A stretch of DNA of 64,000 nucleotides, taken from NCBI GenBank assembly GCA_028713125.1, contig JAQTOU010000002.1, positions 330,583 to 394,582 of the forward strand, written 5' to 3'. Numbering within the stretch: position 1 is the first letter of the stretch; each line of letters opens with the position of its first letter. The translations under genes were made by a program, and so were the position numbers. Under the pieces are notes generated by a model that saw nothing but the letters and a program-made list of their open reading frames with translations, was not told the origin of the DNA and did not search any database. The DNA is from Elusimicrobiales bacterium (GTDB taxonomy: Bacteria; Elusimicrobiota; Elusimicrobia; Elusimicrobiales; UBA9959). Below are positions 6,122 to 18,425 of the stretch, piece by piece.

Positions 6122-7528
6122 TTAAGCCCGTACTCCGGCGCGCTCGCGGACGGGCCTAAGCTTTGCCGTGAAGTGGGGAAGTATCGCGGGCGCCTCCACC
6201 ACTTCCAGCCCTTTGATCCCTTTCTTGTTCTTCGAGAGCCAGCCTAAAACTTCTATCACGTAGTCTATATGGCTCTGCGTGTAGACGCGGCGCGGCATAG
6301 CCAGGCGTACCAGCTCCATCGGGGCGCCTATGAAGTGCCCGTCCCTGTCCCGCTTGCCGAACATCAGCGTGCCTATCTCAACGCCCCTGATGCCGCCCTC
6401 CAGGTAAAGCGCGCAGGCCAGCGCCTGCGCCGGGAACTGATGGGGCTTTATGTGCGGCAGGAATTTTTTCGCGTTGATGTAAACCCCGTGCCCGCCGGGC
6501 GGGTTGATTATGGGTACGCCGTGGTTGAGCAGGCCCTCGCCCAGGTATGCTGCCGAGCGGATGCGGTACTGCAGGTAGTTCTCGTCGAGGACCTCGCGCA
6601 GGCCGATGGCTATTGCTTCCAGGTCCCGCCCCGCCAGCCCGCCGTAGGTGCTGAAGCCCTCGGTGAGGATCAGCATCTGGCGCGCCTTGGCGGACCAGTC
6701 CTTGTTGTTCATGGCCAGGAAGCCTCCCATGTTGACCAGGGCGTCTTTCTTCGCGCTCATCCAGGTCCCGTCGGCCAGCTCGAACATGGCCTCCGCTATC
6801 TCGCGGACCGGGCACTGGGCGTAGCCCTTCTCGCGCAGCTTGATGAAATAAGCGTTCTCGGCGAAGCGCGCGCAGTCGAGGAACATAGGGATGCCGTATT
6901 TGCGGCACAGGTTCTGCACGGCCTTCAGGTTCTCCATCGAGACCGGCTGGCCGCCGAGGGAATTGTTGGTGACGGTCATCACGCAGAGCGGGATGTTCTT
7001 CGCGCCTTTTTCCCTGATGAACTTCTCCATCGCCGGCACGTCGGCATTGCCCTTGAACGGGGCGGGCTTGTCGAAGTCCAGGGCTTCCTTCACCGGGAAA
7101 TCCATAGCCTGGGCGCCGGAGAATTCAACGTTGGCGCGGGTGGTGTCGAAGTGGGAATTGGAAATTATGTATTTGCCTTTCCCGCCTATCACCCCGAAAA
7201 GTATCTTCTCGGCGGCGCGGCCCTGGTGCACAGGGATTATCTCGTCGAAGCCGGTCAGCCTGCGCACTTCGGTCTCGAAGTTGTAGTAGCTGCGCGCCCC
7301 GGCGTAGGATTCGTCGCCTACCATGATGCCGCCCCACTGCGCCGCGCTCATCGCGCCGGTGCCGCTGTCGGTCAGCAGGTCTATCAGCACTTTCTCGGCG
7401 CGGATATTGAAAAGGTTGTAATGCGCCTGCTCAAGTACCGTCAGCCTTTCTTCGCGGGTGGTCAGGCCCAGAGGCTCTACGCTCTTGATCTTGAAAGGCT
7501 CGATTATAGTGTTCCATTTCCATTCCAT
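6122..7528 (-). CDS. tnaA: Tryptophanase (tryptophan indole-lyase) family
   Basis: 468 residues, the normal length for the beta-eliminating lyase family. The PLP lysine is in MSAKKDALV. The substrate-side motif is FDTT, with Asp where tyrosine phenol-lyases have Thr. DCARFAENAYFIK, PHQFPAQALAC and YTQSHIDYVIE also read like TnaA rather than Tpl. The reaction would turn L-tryptophan into indole, pyruvate and ammonia, and serine or cysteine into pyruvate. Good ribosome site aaggag. It lies 12 bases after the DUF1646 gene and 24 before the hydroxyacid oxidase, so it is mid-operon. Specificity is inferred from motifs only; no TnaC-like leader peptide was seen. Confidence 0.88.
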   Translation of the reverse strand: MEWKWNTIIEPFKIKSVEPLGLTTREERLTVLEQAHYNLFNIRAEKVLIDLLTDSGTGAMSAAQWGGIMVGDESYAGARSYYNFETEVRRLTGFDEIIPVHQGRAAEKILFGVIGGKGKYIISNSHFDTTRANVEFSGAQAMDFPVKEALDFDKPAPFKGNADVPAMEKFIREKGAKNIPLCVMTVTNNSLGGQPVSMENLKAVQNLCRKYGIPMFLDCARFAENAYFIKLREKGYAQCPVREIAEAMFELADGTWMSAKKDALVNMGGFLAMNNKDWSAKARQMLILTEGFSTYGGLAGRDLEAIAIGLREVLDENYLQYRIRSAAYLGEGLLNHGVPIINPPGGHGVYINAKKFLPHIKPHQFPAQALACALYLEGGIRGVEIGTLMFGKRDRDGHFIGAPMELVRLAMPRRVYTQSHIDYVIEVLGWLSKNKKGIKGLEVVEAPAILPHFTAKLRPVRERAGVRA

Positions 7529-7540
7529 GGCAGTTTCTCC

Positions 7541-8590
7541 TTAGTGAACCAGCAGAGTCATCAGTACGAAATAGAGCAGCATAAGCGCGCCTCCGAAGGG
7601 CAGGGCGGCCTTGGCCCATTCGCGCGACTTTATCCCCAGCTTGGCGGAGCTGACGATGTTCGGGATATTGCCGGGGATCAGCATGCCGCCGGATATGAGC
7701 AGCCCCATCAGGATGAAAGTTATCTGCCTGTCGGTCATCACCGGCGCTATCTCGGCCGCGGCCAGCGTGGCGTTGTCGAGTATCGCTGAGACGGAGTTGG
7801 CCCAGTAAAGGGCCCAGGTCGGCATTTTGGAGACGAAACGTTCGGCCAGCGGGGAGAGCCCGGCGCCCAGGAAAATAAGCGCCATCACGAAGATGTACAC
7901 TTTGACCGCGCGCGTAAGGATGACTTTGTTCGTGTCGTGCGCGTCCTCCCTGAGGCCCGCCGCGCCGGTCTCGGCGGCCTTGGCGCCGCGGGCGGCCAGG
8001 GCCGAACAGAGTATCACTCCCGGGACTATCCAAAGCCCCACCTGCCTTATCAGATAGAAAAAATCGGCGTTGTGGGGCGGGCCCTTCAGCTTCGAGACCA
8101 CTATTGTAGAGAGAGGTTCCCCGAGCGGGGTAAGCGCCGCGCCCAGGCCTATGGCGTAGCAGGCATAAACGGTAAGCTTTACCTCGTATTCCCGGCTGAG
8201 TTTCAGCAGCGTCACTACCTCCGCCAGCATGATGGCGGCGACTATCGCGGTGAAAACGCTTGAGCCGAGGCCCAGTACCAGTACTATGACGAATATCGCC
8301 CCGCCGAGGCCGAGTTTTTTTGTAAGCGATTCCATCCAGCCGCGCAGATGGTGGCGCACCTCCCGGAAGATCCAGCCTACTATGCCGACGGCCGCGGTGA
8401 TCGCGATGGGCTCCCTTAAAGCCTCTTCAATGAGATGGACTTTCCATAGTCCCGAGATGGTGACGGCACAGATTCCCATTATAAAGAGAAAAGCTTCCAG
8501 TTCCTCCTCGACCTTTTTAACTGAAAAGGGCAGTATCAGGGTCAGGCCCATTATCACGGACAAACCGGCGATTATCAAGTAGTTTGACAT
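7541..8590 (-). CDS. DUF1646 family membrane transporter
   Basis: About 349 residues from the ATG at 8590, chosen because a gagga site precedes it; an open frame runs 21 codons further upstream without one. There are roughly ten hydrophobic segments and conserved patches such as GLGAALTPLGEPLSTI and SAILDNATLAA. These resemble the loops of NhaD/ArsB-type ion transporters, and DUF1646 members are annotated as putative cation or Na+/H+ antiporters. As the first gene of the apparent operon with tryptophanase and the GlcDEF-like complex, it may move a substrate, an ion or a product of that catabolism. The actual cargo is unknown. Confidence 0.85.
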   Translation of the reverse strand: MSNYLIIAGLSVIMGLTLILPFSVKKVEEELEAFLFIMGICAVTISGLWKVHLIEEALREPIAITAAVGIVGWIFREVRHHLRGWMESLTKKLGLGGAIFVIVLVLGLGSSVFTAIVAAIMLAEVVTLLKLSREYEVKLTVYACYAIGLGAALTPLGEPLSTIVVSKLKGPPHNADFFYLIRQVGLWIVPGVILCSALAARGAKAAETGAAGLREDAHDTNKVILTRAVKVYIFVMALIFLGAGLSPLAERFVSKMPTWALYWANSVSAILDNATLAAAEIAPVMTDRQITFILMGLLISGGMLIPGNIPNIVSSAKLGIKSREWAKAALPFGGALMLLYFVLMTLLVH

Positions 8591-8718: not shown

Positions 8719-9654
8719 ATGTTCAAGTTCAAGCGGCCGGTGGGGCTTTTTCTTTGCGGCGGCGGCGCGCTGGGCTCCTGGCAGTCCGGGGTGCTGGCGG
8801 AGCTGGTGCGCCAGGGCCTGCATTTCGACGTCGTGGCCGGCTTCAGCGTGGGCGCCCTGAACGGCGCGGCCTACTGCTACAACAAGACCGGGGAGCTGCG
8901 CCAGGTCTGGCGCGATATGAAGCCGGAGACCGTCCTGAGCCTCAAGCCCAGGTATTACAATATCCCGCTCGAACTTTACCAGCAGCACGAAGGCAGCCTC
9001 GCGAACAAGTTCAATTTCTTTTTCCAGAACCAGCTGGCCAAGCTCACTCTTTTCTCCAACAAGCAGCTTTATAATCTCCTCAACGGCTGGCTGGTGAAAA
9101 GCGGCCCGCAGTTCCCCCGCAATATAAAATTTTACGTCATCAGCCACGCGGTGGAGATGAAGCTGCCGTATATCGTGCGTTTCGACGGCTCCACCCAGAG
9201 CCATAATCTGTCTTTTACCGACGCGCTGGTGGCCAGCTGCTCCATACCGATGATCTTCCCGCCGGTTCCGGTGGAGGAGCACGGCCGCAAGCACCACCTG
9301 GTGGACGGCGGCGTGATAGGCATCGCCACTATCAATTTGAGCATCTTCGAGGGCTGCCGCACCGTGATAATGATAGGCAATTCCCGCCCGGAGGACATGG
9401 ATTTCCACGGGAAGGGGCCGATCGGTTATTTCGAGCGCAAGGCGCGCCGCATGCTGGCCCTGCACACGCAGAAGATCTACGAGTCGCGCGTATTCCTGAA
9501 TTCGGAGCCCGACGTGTACCTGATAAAGCCGCCCACCGACCTCGGCCTCAACCTGCTCGAGTTCGACGGGGCCAAGTGCGAAAAAGCTTTCGACATCGGC
9601 GAAGCCGAAGCCAAACTCTTCCTGCACAACCTGGAGCAGCCCGCTAGACCGTGA
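8719..9654 (+). CDS. Patatin-like phospholipase
   Basis: 311 residues. The N-terminal glycine-rich oxyanion loop is CGGGALGSWQSG, the nucleophile elbow is GFSVGALNG (Ser of G-x-S-x-G), and the catalytic Asp is in VDGGV around residue 195. This is a complete Ser-Asp dyad of the RssA/patatin family, which releases fatty acids from lipids. No signal peptide or transmembrane segment is visible, so it is probably cytoplasmic. The start has a tidy aagga site. Its last four bases overlap the GTG start of the TauE/SafE gene, so the two are translated together. Confidence 0.92.
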   Translation: MFKFKRPVGLFLCGGGALGSWQSGVLAELVRQGLHFDVVAGFSVGALNGAAYCYNKTGELRQVWRDMKPETVLSLKPRYYNIPLELYQQHEGSLANKFNFFFQNQLAKLTLFSNKQLYNLLNGWLVKSGPQFPRNIKFYVISHAVEMKLPYIVRFDGSTQSHNLSFTDALVASCSIPMIFPPVPVEEHGRKHHLVDGGVIGIATINLSIFEGCRTVIMIGNSRPEDMDFHGKGPIGYFERKARRMLALHTQKIYESRVFLNSEPDVYLIKPPTDLGLNLLEFDGAKCEKAFDIGEAEAKLFLHNLEQPARP

Positions 9655-10502
9655 TCGAACTGACCGCCCTTAATTTTTCCATACTCCTCTTTTTCGGGGT
9701 CTTCATCGGCTTGCTCGGCTCCGCGCTGGGCGTGGGCGGGGGGATCTTCCTCGTCCCGTTCCTGGTGCTCGCCCTGAAGATCCCCATCCACCAGGCGGTC
9801 GCTGCTTCGCTGGTCGCCATCGTGGCCACCTCGAGCGCGGTGGCCTCTGTGAACGTCGAGCGCGGGCTCGCGAACATCAGGCTGGGGATAACGCTGGAAG
9901 TCACTACAGCCCTCGGTTCGATAGCGGGCGCGCTGATAGCCAGCCGGATCCCCGGGGCGACGGTGCAGCTCCTGTTCGCCCTCATGCTTTTCCCGGTCTC
10001 GATCCTGATGTTCATGAAAGGCCGGAGCGCCCTTAAAAGAATTCCCGCCACTGCCTCCCAGCTTTCCACGGACGCCGCAACTTCCTCCTTCGATTCCGCT
10101 TTTTTCGATCCCGCGGTCGATTCCCATACTCATTACCGGGTGAGGAATATGACGCCGGCCTCCGTAATTTCTTTTTTCGCGGGCTCCCTGTCGGGGCTGC
10201 TCGGGATAGGGGGCGGCGTGGTCCAGGTCCCGGTCATGAACCTGCTGTGCGGCGTGCCTATGAAAGCGGCGGCGGCTACGAGCAACTTTATCATAGGCGT
10301 TTCGGCCGCGGCGAGCGCCTATATTTATTTCCGGCAGGGGCTCATTCCCTTTAAGCTTACTTCCGTGATAGTGGTCGGTGTGCTTCTCGGTTCTTTCCTC
10401 GGCATCTACGCGCTTTACAAGGCCAGGTCGGAAAAATTGCAGATGGTGTTTTCAGCTTTCACCCTGCTGGTGGCGGTCAGGATGCTGATGAAGGCGATAT
10501 AA
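9651..10502 (+). CDS. TauE/SafE family anion exporter
   Basis: 283 residues starting with GTG in a GTGA overlap with the patatin gene. It has about eight transmembrane segments in two homologous halves; each half opens with a GLLGSALGVGGGIFLVP-like or GLLGIGGGVVQVP motif, the hallmark of the former DUF81 family. Members export sulfite, sulfoacetate or related anions across the inner membrane. The hydrophilic insert between the halves (~125-160) is Ser/Thr/Asp-rich and somewhat long. A DUF1634 gene follows with no gap, a frequent pairing for this family. Substrate unknown. Confidence 0.9.
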   Translation: MIELTALNFSILLFFGVFIGLLGSALGVGGGIFLVPFLVLALKIPIHQAVAASLVAIVATSSAVASVNVERGLANIRLGITLEVTTALGSIAGALIASRIPGATVQLLFALMLFPVSILMFMKGRSALKRIPATASQLSTDAATSSFDSAFFDPAVDSHTHYRVRNMTPASVISFFAGSLSGLLGIGGGVVQVPVMNLLCGVPMKAAAATSNFIIGVSAAASAYIYFRQGLIPFKLTSVIVVGVLLGSFLGIYALYKARSEKLQMVFSAFTLLVAVRMLMKAI

Positions 10503-13128: not shown

Positions 13129-15474
13129 TTATTCCGTCCCCGGCTTTATTTCCGCCTGAGGCAGAGTGAAGTAGAAGGTCGTGCCTTTGCCCACCTCGCT
13201 CTCCGCCCAGATCCTGCCGTTGTGAAGTTTCAGGAAATCGTTAACGATAACCAGGCCGAGGCCCACCCCTTCCATTGAGCGGCGCGAGTCCAGCTGCACG
13301 AATTTCTGAAAGAGCTTGCTCAGGTCCTCTTTAGGGATGCCGTGCCCGGTGTCCCTCACCCCTACAAGCACGTTCCCGTCCCGCTCCGGAGAGGGCGAGG
13401 CCGCCACGACCACGGACCCGCCTTCCGGCGTGGCCTTTATCGCGTTCGAAATAAGGTTGGTAAGCACCTGCACTATGCGGGGCGGGTCGGCCAGGGCGCA
13501 CAGGTCTTCGGCGGGGGGCCGCAGCGTGAGCGTTATCCCTTTCGTCCTGGCCCACGGCGTCAGCCCCTCCACAGCCTCCGTCATGATGCCGGATAAAAGC
13601 GCGGGGACCGGGTGCACGTCCATCTTGCCGGACTGGAGCTTTGAGAAATCCAGTATGCCGCGTATCATCTGGCTGAGGCGGTGGCTGTTCCTGATGCTGA
13701 TGTCCAGGAACTTGGTCTCCATAGGGTCCAGCTTTTTCGAGGAGGCCTCGGTGAGCATCTCGAGGGCCGAGGTGATGGAGGAGAGCGGCGACTGCAGGTC
13801 GTGGGTGATGCGGGAGAGGAACTCCTCCTGCATCCGCTGGGCCTCTTTATACTTCGTTATCTCCGGCATAGTGCTTAATTCTCCGACCACGCGGCCTTCG
13901 GCGTCCACCAGCATCGCGACGGAGCGCCGCATCGTCCGCCCCATGCTCTCGTCCCCCTGCACCTCCACCTCGCCGGAAATTATCTTTCCGCCGGAAAGGT
14001 CCATATCCTTTGAGAGGGTCAGGATATGCTCCCCCGGGCGGAGCTGCTCGCTTATATGCTTGCCCACGGCGTCCGCGAATTTCGTGCCGGCTATTTCCTC
14101 GGCGGCCGGGTTCATCATCAGGATCTTGCCGTCCTTGTCGACGATGACCTTGCCGTCCGCCACCCTGGACAGGACGTGTTCGGTGCGCGACCGCGTGTTC
14201 AGGGCCGCCTCTTTTTCCGCCGCCAGTGCCCTGGTGGATTCCGCTATCTGCTGCTCCATGGACTCGCGGAGCGACTTGATAGCGTCCTCGTAAGCGCGGG
14301 CGCGGTCCCTGGGATCTTTCACCGCCGATTCCACCAGCCCCTTGAGAATGCCGCCGAAACTCATGTTCGCCAGCAGGCTTTCCTGGGGCTTGCCGCCGCC
14401 GGGGCCTTCGGCCTCTTTTCCGCCGCCCGGGCCTTCCGCGGCTTTGCCGCCTCCGGGACCTTTACCGGGACCGCCGCCGGGTCCGGGCCCGAACATGGCA
14501 TCGGGGCCGGATTTCGCGCTCTCCGGTTCGGCGGTTTTTGCTCCGCCCTGCCCGCCGCCGGCCGCGGTCACCGGCCCGAACATCGAATCCGCATCTATCC
14601 TGACGGGCGGCGGCCGGTGCGCGTCCTTCGGCTCCTGGGCGGGCCTTGCCGGGGCCGGCCTGGGCTGCTGCACAGGCGCGGCTGCCTGCGGCCTTGCGGC
14701 CGCCGGCCTGGGCTGCTGGACCGGGGCCGCTGCCTGGGGTGCCGGGGCCGGCCTGGGCTGCTGGACAGGCGCTATATTCTGCGGCGCCCTTGCCGGGGCC
14801 GGCCTGGGCTGCTGCGGGGGCGCTGCCGACGGCCTGGCCTGGGGGCGGACCTGCAGTTCGGGAAAGATCTCCGGGACCGGCCTCTGGGCCGCCGGCCTCG
14901 CCGCCGGCTTGGCGGCAGGCGCCGCTTCGGGAGCGCCGCGGTATGGCTGAGCCTGGGGTCCGTAGCCGCCTTCCTTAACGTAATGCACGGCTTCCGGCCT
15001 GATATTAGTTACGCCTTTTCCGGCGAAAAATTCCTCCATGTAACCCGCGGGCCGGTTTTTGGCCTGGGCGGCAAGGAACTCGCACAGGGCGCCGATCTCG
15101 AAGGACTGCACCCCGTCCACGAAGGTCAGCCCCTGGATGCGGTGCGCCTTGAAAAAAGCGTTGAGGTTCTGGGATTCCTGGGTGACGGCGGGAACGGCGG
15201 TGTCGTTGAAAAGCCAGCTGTCGTTCGCGAAAGTAAGCGTTATCGAGGTTTCTTTTTTAGCGTCGAAAAGCATGCCCAGGAGCACGCCGCTCTTGCGCAG
15301 CGACTCTAGCACCACGGGGTGGCTCAGGGTATAAAGCGCGGTGTTCTTTATGGCCTTGGCCAGCCCCCCCAGGAACTCGGAGCAGAGCTCCGGGTAGGAG
15401 AGCGCGTATCTCTCGCTTCCCGGCGTATAGGGTTCATTGCCTTCCCCTGCGGTTTCCTGATTTAGCGGTATCAT
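13129..15474 (-). CDS. PAS sensor histidine kinase with Pro/Ala-rich linker
   Basis: About 781 residues from the ATG at 15474, preferred because tggggtg precedes it; a GTG at 15483 overlaps the previous stop. Order: an unrecognised globular domain (~1-165), a long Pro/Ala/Gly-rich low-complexity linker (~175-390) with repeated APVQQPRPAP-like units, a coiled helix, a PAS domain (~435-540), HisKA with the phospho-acceptor in RITHDLQSPL, and a HATPase domain (DTGHGIPKEDL, GVGLGLVIV). There is no transmembrane segment, so it is cytoplasmic. It directly follows, and probably overlaps, the REC-GspE ATPase gene, which suggests that the REC domain of that ATPase is its phosphorylation target. Confidence 0.92.
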   Translation of the reverse strand: MIPLNQETAGEGNEPYTPGSERYALSYPELCSEFLGGLAKAIKNTALYTLSHPVVLESLRKSGVLLGMLFDAKKETSITLTFANDSWLFNDTAVPAVTQESQNLNAFFKAHRIQGLTFVDGVQSFEIGALCEFLAAQAKNRPAGYMEEFFAGKGVTNIRPEAVHYVKEGGYGPQAQPYRGAPEAAPAAKPAARPAAQRPVPEIFPELQVRPQARPSAAPPQQPRPAPARAPQNIAPVQQPRPAPAPQAAAPVQQPRPAAARPQAAAPVQQPRPAPARPAQEPKDAHRPPPVRIDADSMFGPVTAAGGGQGGAKTAEPESAKSGPDAMFGPGPGGGPGKGPGGGKAAEGPGGGKEAEGPGGGKPQESLLANMSFGGILKGLVESAVKDPRDRARAYEDAIKSLRESMEQQIAESTRALAAEKEAALNTRSRTEHVLSRVADGKVIVDKDGKILMMNPAAEEIAGTKFADAVGKHISEQLRPGEHILTLSKDMDLSGGKIISGEVEVQGDESMGRTMRRSVAMLVDAEGRVVGELSTMPEITKYKEAQRMQEEFLSRITHDLQSPLSSITSALEMLTEASSKKLDPMETKFLDISIRNSHRLSQMIRGILDFSKLQSGKMDVHPVPALLSGIMTEAVEGLTPWARTKGITLTLRPPAEDLCALADPPRIVQVLTNLISNAIKATPEGGSVVVAASPSPERDGNVLVGVRDTGHGIPKEDLSKLFQKFVQLDSRRSMEGVGLGLVIVNDFLKLHNGRIWAESEVGKGTTFYFTLPQAEIKPGTE

Positions 15475-15479
15475 ATAGA

Positions 15480-17555
15480 TCACCCCATCATTATCTTGAA
15501 AGCTTCTGACAGAGAGGTCTGCCCCTGCCTTACGGCCTCGAGGGCGGACTGGCGCAGCGAGGTCATTCCTTCCTTGACGGCCAGTTCCGTAAGCAGGTCC
15601 ACATTATTGCTGGTGGTGATCAGCTGGCGCATCGCCGAGGTTTCCACCGGCATCACTTCAAAAACGGCCCTTCGGCCGGAATAGCCCCCGCTGCAGGAAT
15701 GGCAGCCCACGGGGTGATAGACTGTTTTTAGCAGCTCTATCTCTTTCGGATTCAGGAATTTTTTATCTTCGGCGGTAAGAGCGCCGGGCGCCCGGCACTG
15801 GGTGCAGAGCGTGCGCACCAGGCGCTGGGCTATGACCATTTTCACGCTGGCGGCCACCAGGTAGGGGGCCACGCCCATATGGGTGAGGCGGACTATGGTA
15901 GCCGGCGCGCTGTTCGTGTGCAGGGTGGAAAACACAAGGTGGCCGGTGATGGAGGCCTTTATCGCTATCTCGGCGGTCTCTACGTCGCGGATCTCTCCGA
16001 CCAGCATGATGTCGGGGTCCTGCCGCAGGAAAGCCCTGAGGGTGGATTCGAAAGTCAGTCCGATGGACGACAATATTTTTACCTGGTTCACGTTCGGAAC
16101 TTCGTACTCCACCGGGTCTTCCGCCGTCATTATATTAACGTCCGGCCGGTTCAGCACGTTGATCATCGTATAAAGCGTCGTTGTCTTTCCGCTGCCGGTG
16201 GGCCCCGTCACCAGCACCAGCCCGTTGGAGCCTTTAAGCGAGCCCTGCACGGCTTTAAGCTCGCGCGGCGTCAGGGCGAGCTGCGAAAGGCTGCTGTTAA
16301 GCTTGCTCTGGCCCAGTATGCGCATCACTATCTTCTCGCCTTTTATGCAGGGCAGGGTGCTGACCCTGAATTCGATCTTGTTCCCTTTTATCATCACGCG
16401 GAACTGGCCGTCCTGCGGCAGGCGCCTCTCGGTTATCACCAGGCTGCTCATGATCTTTATGCGGGCCGTCAGGCGCGGATGGATGGAAATGGGGAGGGTG
16501 GTCAGCTGCTTCAGCACGCCGTCCACGCGGGCCCTTACCAGAACCCGGTCCTCGAACGGCTCGATATGGATATCCGAAGCGCGCATTTCCACGGCCGCCA
16601 TAAGTATTTTATTCACGCGCTGGATAAGGGGGGAATCGCTCGCGAGGTTCTCAAGGCCCAGTGCGCTCTGCGGCTCTTCTTTGCGCGGGGCGCCGCTTTC
16701 AAGCATTTCCAGGTCCTGGTCGCCGGCCCCGGACAACATGTCTATTTCCGGGACTTCGGACTCCGGCTCGGGCGCGGGTTCGGGCATGACCTCGATCTCC
16801 GCCTCAGGCGCGGCTTCCGGGGCGGGCGCAGGTTCGGGTGCCGGCTCGGGAAGCGGCTCCGTTTCAGGGGGCAGCTGGGCTTCTGGCGGCAGTTCTACCG
16901 GAACTGCCTGAACAGGCGCGGGAGCGCGCTGGGGCATCTGCGGCGCCGGTTCGGGCTCATAAGCCGCATGCGGCTCCGGAGCGGCCATCTCGAACCTTTC
17001 TATTTCCAGCGAAACTGGTTCCGGGGCGCCGCTGGCCGGGGCAGGCCTGGGTTCCGGCCTGGGCGCGGGCCTGCTTTCGGGGACCGGGGGGCGCTTCACT
17101 TCGAAGATCCTGGCTATGCTCTCGAGCAGCTTGGCGTTCGATACCGGCTTCTCGAGAAAATCGGAAATATCCATGTTCAGGGTGCGCAGGTGCTGCCTGT
17201 TGGTGGCGCCGGTGAACATTATTATGCGGAGGCTGTGGGTTTCATAGTTGCTGCGCACTTCCTGTATAAGTTCATACCCGTTCATCTTGGGCATGTTAAA
17301 ATCTACCAGGATCAAGTCAGGCATGGATTTGGAGAGAACGGCAAGGGCTTCTTCGCCGTTGCCGGCTTCCAGGACCTTATAATGGTTAACGGTCAGGAGA
17401 TGCTTGACCAGCTCCCGGTAATCCTTGTTATCGTCGACGACCAGCACGGTCCTGGACGCCGGCGCCTGGCGCTGGCCGGGCTTTCCCGCGGCCTGTGCCG
17501 TCCTGGATGCCGGGTTCATCCCCGCCCCCGGATTATTCTGAGTGAACGTTTCCAT
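15480..17555 (-). CDS. Response-regulator receiver / GspE-PilB type ATPase fusion
   Basis: About 691 residues from the ATG at 17555, chosen because gagg lies eight bases upstream; a GTG two codons earlier has poorer spacing. Residues ~35-155 are a REC domain (VLVVDDNKDYRE, phospho-Asp in LILVDFNMPKMNGYE). An Ala/Pro/Glu-rich linker runs to ~290. The rest is a type II secretion/type IV pilus extension ATPase: Walker A GPTGSGKTTT, Walker B region IMLVGEIRDVETAE, and a tetracysteine zinc motif (CTQC...CHSC). The usual N-terminal MshEN-like domain is absent and the receiver stands in its place. It should power pilus or pseudopilus assembly under phosphorylation control. The kinase gene follows immediately. 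Confidence 0.93.
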   Translation of the reverse strand: METFTQNNPGAGMNPASRTAQAAGKPGQRQAPASRTVLVVDDNKDYRELVKHLLTVNHYKVLEAGNGEEALAVLSKSMPDLILVDFNMPKMNGYELIQEVRSNYETHSLRIIMFTGATNRQHLRTLNMDISDFLEKPVSNAKLLESIARIFEVKRPPVPESRPAPRPEPRPAPASGAPEPVSLEIERFEMAAPEPHAAYEPEPAPQMPQRAPAPVQAVPVELPPEAQLPPETEPLPEPAPEPAPAPEAAPEAEIEVMPEPAPEPESEVPEIDMLSGAGDQDLEMLESGAPRKEEPQSALGLENLASDSPLIQRVNKILMAAVEMRASDIHIEPFEDRVLVRARVDGVLKQLTTLPISIHPRLTARIKIMSSLVITERRLPQDGQFRVMIKGNKIEFRVSTLPCIKGEKIVMRILGQSKLNSSLSQLALTPRELKAVQGSLKGSNGLVLVTGPTGSGKTTTLYTMINVLNRPDVNIMTAEDPVEYEVPNVNQVKILSSIGLTFESTLRAFLRQDPDIMLVGEIRDVETAEIAIKASITGHLVFSTLHTNSAPATIVRLTHMGVAPYLVAASVKMVIAQRLVRTLCTQCRAPGALTAEDKKFLNPKEIELLKTVYHPVGCHSCSGGYSGRRAVFEVMPVETSAMRQLITTSNNVDLLTELAVKEGMTSLRQSALEAVRQGQTSLSEAFKIMMG

Positions 17556-17611
17556 AACCACGCCCTCGTATTGCGCCGCTCATTTTTACGCTGGCTCCCT
17601 GCTGCATAAAT

Positions 17612-17640
17612 AGTATACAGGCAGGGTCCGCTTTTTACAA
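17612..17640 (-). promoter_or_regulatory. Sigma70 promoter of the REC-GspE / kinase operon
   Basis: On the minus strand TTGTAA (17635-17640) and TATACT (17612-17617) are separated by exactly 17 bases, about 57 bases before the chosen start codon. Confidence 0.7.
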
Positions 17641-17696: not shown

Positions 17697-18425
17697 TTAA
17701 CGGCGGTGTTTACGTTCTTTGCAGCTCTTGCGGTAGCAGGAGGGGGTGGCTTTGGCGATCTTTTCGAACTGCCTTATGAAGGACTCGGTGTTCGCGTAGC
17801 CGAGCTTGGCCGAGATCTGTTTGACGCTGCTTCCGGTCGACCGGAGCATTTTCTTGGCCTGCGCCATCTTTACTTTAAGCTTATATTCATTAAAGCCCAT
17901 CCCGGTCTTTTCCCTGAACAGGCGGCTTAAATATTTCGGGCTCATGTACACGGTCAGCGCCGCGTCCTTTAGAGTTATCTTTTTAAAGCAGTTCCCTTCC
18001 AGGAACCACCGGACATGCTCTATTTTCCCCGCGATGTCCATGTCGTCGGGGCGGGCGGAGCCGGACCTCTTTAAAAGCTCTTTTTCTATAGCCTCCCGCA
18101 TCGTCTTTATATCGAAAGGCTTCTCTATGTAATTGTCGGCTTTTGCTATCAGAGCGTGGATGGCCACGTCCTTGGTGCTGAAGCCGGTCATTATAATGAC
18201 GCTTTTATCCGGCGCGATGGTCTTTATCTTTTCAAGCGCGGCCAGGCCGTCCATGCCGGGCATCTGGACGTCGAGGATCACCAGGTCCAGCTCGTTGGGC
18301 TTTTTAAGTATGTTCAGGGCCTCCTGCGCGCAGGACGCCTCGGTGATATCGTATTCCTCGTACCAGAGCTTGAAGTCCGTACGCAGGTCTTTATTGTCGT
18401 CTACAAGCAGTATTTTGCCGCGCAT
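17697..18425 (-). CDS. Response regulator with AraC-type DNA-binding domain
   Basis: 242 residues. The REC domain (~1-120) has the acidic pocket DD at 9-10, phospho-Asp in LVILDVQMPGMDG and Lys in IEKPF. After a short linker, ~140-235 form two helix-turn-helix units of the AraC family (ITLKDAALTVYMSPKYLSRLFREKTG and VKQISAKLGYANTESFIRQFEK). It should activate or repress promoters when phosphorylated. No kinase is directly beside it. The nearest are the GspE-linked kinase on one side and the phosphorelay at 26.5-31 kb, so its partner is undetermined. Confidence 0.92.
   Translation of the reverse strand: MRGKILLVDDNKDLRTDFKLWYEEYDITEASCAQEALNILKKPNELDLVILDVQMPGMDGLAALEKIKTIAPDKSVIIMTGFSTKDVAIHALIAKADNYIEKPFDIKTMREAIEKELLKRSGSARPDDMDIAGKIEHVRWFLEGNCFKKITLKDAALTVYMSPKYLSRLFREKTGMGFNEYKLKVKMAQAKKMLRSTGSSVKQISAKLGYANTESFIRQFEKIAKATPSCYRKSCKERKHRR

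Follow-up and report, generated by a model that had tools for sequence, protein, structure and literature searches.

The window, a stretch of 64,000 nucleotides from an Elusimicrobiales bacterium, encodes a receiver (REC) domain fused in one chain to a PilB/GspE-type extension ATPase (here REC-PilB), followed by an overlapping gene for a soluble histidine kinase. The two proteins probably form a two-component system with the type IV pilus extension motor as its output; for this reading we infer the phosphotransfer, the platform, the sign of the control and its structural route. The features of the cluster, in window positions, are:

17697 to 18425, minus strand: REC-AraC response regulator directly upstream of REC-PilB (Pfam Response_reg and HTH_18)
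15480 to 17561, minus strand: REC-PilB, receiver domain fused to a PilB/GspE-type extension ATPase, 693 amino acids, GTG start
17115 to 17447, minus strand: REC domain, residues 39–149 (Pfam PF00072 Response_reg, E = 2.9e-26)
17301 to 17303, minus strand: codon of the phospho-acceptor Asp87, invariant in the homologue alignment
16662 to 17096, minus strand: Pro/Ala/Glu-rich linker, residues 156–300, predicted to be disordered (pLDDT mostly below 55), no MshEN
15498 to 16643, minus strand: T2SSE ATPase (N2D and CTD), residues 307–688 (PF00437, E = 6.9e-130)
15480 to 15483, minus strand: GTGA overlap of the ATPase stop and the kinase GTG start, shared by 14 of 32 loci
13129 to 15483, minus strand: soluble histidine kinase, 784 amino acids, with N-terminal domain, Pro/Ala/Gly linker, PAS, HisKA and HATPase_c
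14992 to 15396, minus strand: N-terminal domain of the kinase, residues 30–164, no Pfam family, conserved in partner kinases
13627 to 13830, minus strand: HisKA of the kinase, residues 552–619 (Pfam, 54.0 bits, above the gathering score)
13153 to 13488, minus strand: HATPase_c of the kinase, residues 666–777 (Pfam, 108.3 bits, above the gathering score)

The REC domain scores 92.2 bits in Pfam against a gathering cut-off of 30.2, which classes it as a response regulator, and all receiver residues are present: the acidic pair D43/D44, the phospho-Asp D87, T117 and K138. The T2SSE domain scores 433.4 bits (gathering cut-off 24.9). Its motifs are complete (Walker A, Walker B, Asp box, His box and two CxxC pairs) and include GPTGSGKTT, LVGEIRDVET and RLPQDG. 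MshEN/T2SSE_N (PF05157) is absent from the protein in Pfam at E ≤ 0.001, and REC and the linker are found in its place, in agreement with the original prediction that REC replaces the normal N-terminal domain of the ATPase. In the AlphaFold model (mean pLDDT 71.5), REC and the ATPase are folded, REC with a pLDDT of about 90 over most of the domain, and residues 156–300 are unstructured. The best PDB match of the model is PilB of Geobacter metallireducens (5tsh, E = 9e-46, Foldseek). The gene had been placed at 15480–17555; 17555 is indeed an in-frame ATG and an alternative start, six bases after the GTG, but the open reading frame runs to that GTG at 17561. One promoter-like site (a 9-of-12 match at 17640–17612) lies upstream of the gene and was not counted as evidence.

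A scan of named genome contigs retained 79 loci. REC and ATPase are in one frame in 27 of them, with titles of Elusimicrobia, Elusimicrobiota, Elusimicrobiales or 'bacterium'; no REC was found on any PilB-like frame of the remaining 52. Nine of the 149 genomes sampled from the phylum have the N-terminal fusion (the window genome and eight others), and in a plasmid search none of the best 5000 records covers 80% of the query. After removal of identical duplicates (L110, L111, L112, L116 and L118), 32 distinct REC-PilB proteins were counted. The phospho-Asp and the Lys are present in all 32 and the Thr/Ser in 31; loss of the Asp, named beforehand as the outcome that would speak against the prediction, was not seen. 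The gap between REC and T2SSE ranges from 58 to 157 residues, and the linker is poorly conserved and of variable length. For three pairs of homologues, dN/dS is 0.047, 0.098 and 0.068 in REC and 0.139, 0.215 and 0.177 in the linker, which shows purifying selection. The lineage conserves both the fusion and the gene order, and the dN/dS of REC is 0.05–0.10; the REC–ATPase fusion is therefore judged from sequence not to be a chance event, and the genes for REC-PilB and the kinase are assigned to a lineage of Elusimicrobiota.

The next gene had been predicted to encode an overlapping, cytosolic PAS kinase, and the GTGA overlap, the PAS, HisKA and HATPase_c domains and the lack of any transmembrane-type hydrophobic segment in the kinase (top Kyte–Doolittle 19-residue mean 1.19) all agree with this. 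The Pro/Ala-rich linkers expected in both proteins are present as well. In 31 of the 32 loci, the same strand encodes the kinase N-terminal domain downstream of REC-PilB, with the GTGA overlap in 14, an ATG 1–6 bases past the stop in seven and an intervening stretch of approximately 0.7–0.9 kb in ten. The kinase catalytic domain is found in 28 of the 29 loci with enough contig; the exception, L032, has no kinase within 8 kb and has Met at the Thr/Ser site. The intervening gene encodes 244–260 amino acids in L033–L037; that of L036, the only one of these tested, is a TPR protein. The available part of one report describes recruitment of PilB by the TPR protein SgmX in Myxococcus (PMC11580455). 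The N-terminal domain of the kinase has no PDB match at E ≤ 0.001 (Foldseek) and none with Z ≥ 5 (VIA-align, best 4.4), which is not proof of a new fold. An orphan kinase encoded in the same genome also has this domain, and an HD-domain protein gives a weak match to it. The orphan paralogue (L100, 10991–13048, minus strand; C35, 163–166 kb) has a PilT-like gene (8811–10259) within 1 kb. As the kinase is soluble, its cue may be cytoplasmic or membrane-associated.

No T2SSF or secretin match falls within the window, its list of open reading frames holds no pilin, and no platform, pilin or secretin gene adjoins REC-PilB in the lists for the window and nine distant loci. The machine of the motor had been expected elsewhere, and the genome (G000; 3.48 Mb, 39 contigs) does contain a type IVa pilus machine. 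T2SSE gives 11 matches there, platform genes occur in three regions, and four secretins are encoded. On contig C26, pilM, pilO and a PilQ-type secretin with AMIN are found together (profile matches to PilM_2, PilO, secretin and AMIN), and the frames between them, read by eye, resemble pilN and pilP. PilC (T2SSF) adjoins PilT on C15, approximately 94 kb from the window. On C11, a PilB with MshEN is close to PilA-like pilin and prepilin peptidase-like (PilD) frames (L093, by eye); another part of C11 encodes a GspE accompanied by a T2SSF and a secretin of its own, and C35 carries a Tad locus. At L096 on C35 (7861–10080, plus strand), a CbiA/MinD-like domain is fused to a Tad-type ATPase in one 739-residue chain, presumably TadZ-CpaF-like. 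The type IVa pilus assembly genes are thus present and dispersed. Since the platform genes are all at other places, REC-PilB is predicted to be an extension motor that lacks its own platform. Apart from the Tad system, the genome has just two platform genes; one of these is already paired with a GspE, which leaves the PilC next to PilT as the only GspE-free one. With a dispersed type IVa machine in the same genome, REC-PilB most likely serves that machine as an additional extension motor under kinase control, its platform assigned by elimination from the gene inventory.

Alternatively, the motor could drive not a retractable type IV pilus but a pseudopilus like that of type II secretion, which we regard as unlikely. 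REC-PilB scores below the curated cut-offs of both equivalog models, with 517.9 bits against 675.65 for TIGR02538 (type IV-A PilB; its N1 part is unmatched) and 485.0 bits against 630.25 for TIGR02533 (GspE). The GspE-like L104 and L108 are its sisters in a quick tree (SH-aLRT 95), a relation not settled in the careful tree described below; the neighbours of L104, by eye, are a T2SSF-like protein and short pilin-like proteins. However, the PilB model scores above the GspE model, the nearest solved fold is a PilB, a PilT-like gene is directly upstream of REC-PilB in two of the 32 loci, and the platform left by elimination adjoins PilT. An energy link to A-G-rich proteins, left open in the original prediction, is unsupported: nothing was found, synteny having been compared for eight window proteins, none of them A-G-rich.

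Two further fusions of REC to extension ATPases are encoded in the same genome, one with a C-terminal REC and one with a dead N-terminal REC. The first (L092, 8536–10722, minus strand; C11, 279–281 kb) is MshEN-T2SSE-REC with an intact phospho-Asp; directly behind it, a 377-residue HATPase_c protein (7400–8533, minus strand) makes a second motor–kinase pair, with REC at the other end. This type occurs in 13 of the 149 genomes of the phylum, G120 included, and retains the Asp in all 13; a related kinase adjoins in two. The second (L095, 9069–11156, minus strand; C26, 264–266 kb) is REC-(weak MshEN)-T2SSE with Arg at the phospho-Asp position, and a pilin-like gene (7678–8559) adjoins it. Its type is found in six of the 149 genomes and has relatives with a second, C-terminal REC. 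In L144–L149, from other Elusimicrobiota, REC is present at both ends of the ATPase with intact phospho-sites (L144 has two RECs in front, L149 is interrupted by a stop codon), and kinase frames are close to L146 and L147. The survey of such fusions that had been proposed gave at least one of three types (the N-terminal fusion of the window, the L092 type and the L095 type) in 20 of 149 genomes of the phylum, and Nitrospirota forms in addition. Among 15 genomes outside the phylum reached through loci, REC-MshEN-T2SSE occurs in two, G150 and G155, reached via L040 (titled Thermodesulfovibrionia) and L055 (titled Nitrospiraceae). The Nitrospirota fusions L135, L136 and L137 have 817–843 residues, with a double zinc ribbon in L135. 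A HATPase frame is upstream (445–450 residues in L135 and L137, 208 in L136), and a REC gene is downstream in all three. At least ten of 100 sampled genomes of the phylum of G150 have matches spanning REC to ATPase, of which the locus of G150 alone was inspected. L134 and L142 (in the genomes of L040 and L071) are MshEN-T2SSE with a degenerate C-terminal REC, in which Asp, Thr and Lys are all missing from the aligned positions. The further fusions in the genome, the double-REC relatives and the Nitrospirota forms therefore indicate that fusion of REC to pilus motors is recurrent.

The careful tree contains 65 ATPase domains and was built after removal of most near-copies and of the rows of eight loci, the majority of them long branches. 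The N-type, the Nitrospirota N-type, the Elusimicrobiota C-type (eight rows) and the double-REC type form separate clades, each with support of 100/100, and their deep order is not settled; in the quick tree, the ATPase of G120 groups with the double-REC type. The REC label requires two changes in the quick tree or three in the careful tree, for fusions that were sampled on purpose. Because the N-type clade branches from within REC-free ATPases, the trees indicate at least two separate acquisitions of REC, and we give no count of origins beyond that.

In the mechanism that we propose, the N-terminal and PAS domains of the soluble kinase would detect a cue in the cytoplasm, and the kinase would phosphorylate Asp87 in the REC of the ATPase. 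Phosphorylated REC would then alter REC–REC or REC–partner contacts. With a tether that is long, unstructured and variable, a direct push on the ATPase would not be expected; instead of rigid allostery, control would most likely consist in favouring or preventing assembly of the hexamer, or its docking or placement at the base of the pilus. REC-PilB would compete with the other extension ATPases of the genome for the type IVa platform (PilC on C15). Alternatively, REC could serve for docking or localisation without being phosphorylated, with the kinase acting elsewhere; the same long, poorly conserved linker (58–157 residues), which argues for a tether, speaks for this. The RECs of FimX and FrzS, by the available text of the reports, act without key residues (PMC11656802, PMC11580455), and the phospho-Asp is lost in the paralogous L095 fusion and in two Nitrospirota C-terminal RECs. 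The N-terminal fusion, however, keeps both Asp and Lys in every distinct homologue and is adjoined by the kinase in all but one locus, and we hold a phosphorylation-free module to be improbable.

The kinase-gated motor need not be the sole output. The original prediction set a switch on the motor against one on transcription. Its first half agrees with a REC in the motor chain and an adjoining kinase; the second overlooked the REC-AraC regulator, an orthologue of which is found in 18 of 27 related contig loci, with some REC gene upstream of REC-PilB in 23 of 32. REC-AraC is probably a second output of the cluster and, since it is immediately upstream, a transcriptional branch probably coexists; through this regulator, the kinase that adjoins REC-PilB may act on transcription too. 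In L031, L034, L035, L036, L113 and L114, upstream sequence is visible and contains no REC gene, yet the kinase or its N-terminal domain follows REC-PilB, which is therefore the constant partner. That the kinase mainly serves REC-AraC, with REC-PilB a secondary target or merely co-regulated, would fit the frequent upstream REC gene but has little likelihood, as distant loci without REC-AraC still keep the kinase with REC-PilB and the overlapping neighbour of REC-PilB is the kinase, not the regulator.

Among the closest known systems, as far as the available part of the report describes it, is one in Synechocystis, where the PATAN-CheY-like response regulator PixE acts directly on PilB1 (PMC7690835). 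The likeness is a receiver-containing regulator acting directly on a pilus extension ATPase, as we propose for REC-PilB; PixE, however, is a separate PATAN protein, whereas REC-PilB has REC in the ATPase chain and an overlapping histidine kinase. No PATAN domain, which we take to be listed in Pfam as DUF4388, is among the Pfam matches of REC-PilB. MshE-type ATPases (MshEN-PilB/GspE) have the same T2SSE motor and, according to the text available, are gated by c-di-GMP via their N-terminal domain (PMC10333796); REC-PilB has no MshEN and has a phosphorylatable REC instead. The REC-bearing FimX and the pseudo-REC protein FrzS are described, in the accessible parts of the reports, as governing PilB placement (PMC11656802, PMC11580455). 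They resemble REC-PilB as REC-containing proteins of type IV pilus control, but act in trans and without a phospho-site, whereas the site of REC-PilB is intact and in cis. The MshEN-T2SSE-REC and double-REC (REC-..-T2SSE-REC) forms of Elusimicrobiota and the REC-MshEN-T2SSE form of Nitrospirota are likewise fusions of REC to an extension ATPase, some with a kinase nearby, but differ from REC-PilB in domain order and fall in separate clades. No REC-PilB or REC-GspE fusion is described in the portions of the literature covered by our search, the scope of which excluded subscription papers and preprints. Domain databases may list the REC and T2SSE architecture. Within these sources, a response regulator acting on PilB in trans is known, and no phosphorylatable REC in cis with its own kinase was found.

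Known control of pilus extension consists of c-di-GMP acting on the motor or of separate adaptor proteins. A REC in cis with a kinase in the next frame would let a single protein pair be used to probe phosphorylation of a hexameric motor, and the cell could switch a molecular machine on or off directly, not only through gene expression. The three different REC fusions in one genome are natural variants, one with a dead receiver, and the repeated occurrence of such fusions in both Elusimicrobiota and Nitrospirota points to a solution of general use. It is conceivable, although we lean slightly against it, that REC-fused extension ATPases are recurrent, overlooked phosphorylation-gated pilus motors, and that differently gated motors (by phosphorylation, by c-di-GMP, by both or with a dead REC) share one platform per cell. 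If so, the choice of motor would itself be a signalling decision.
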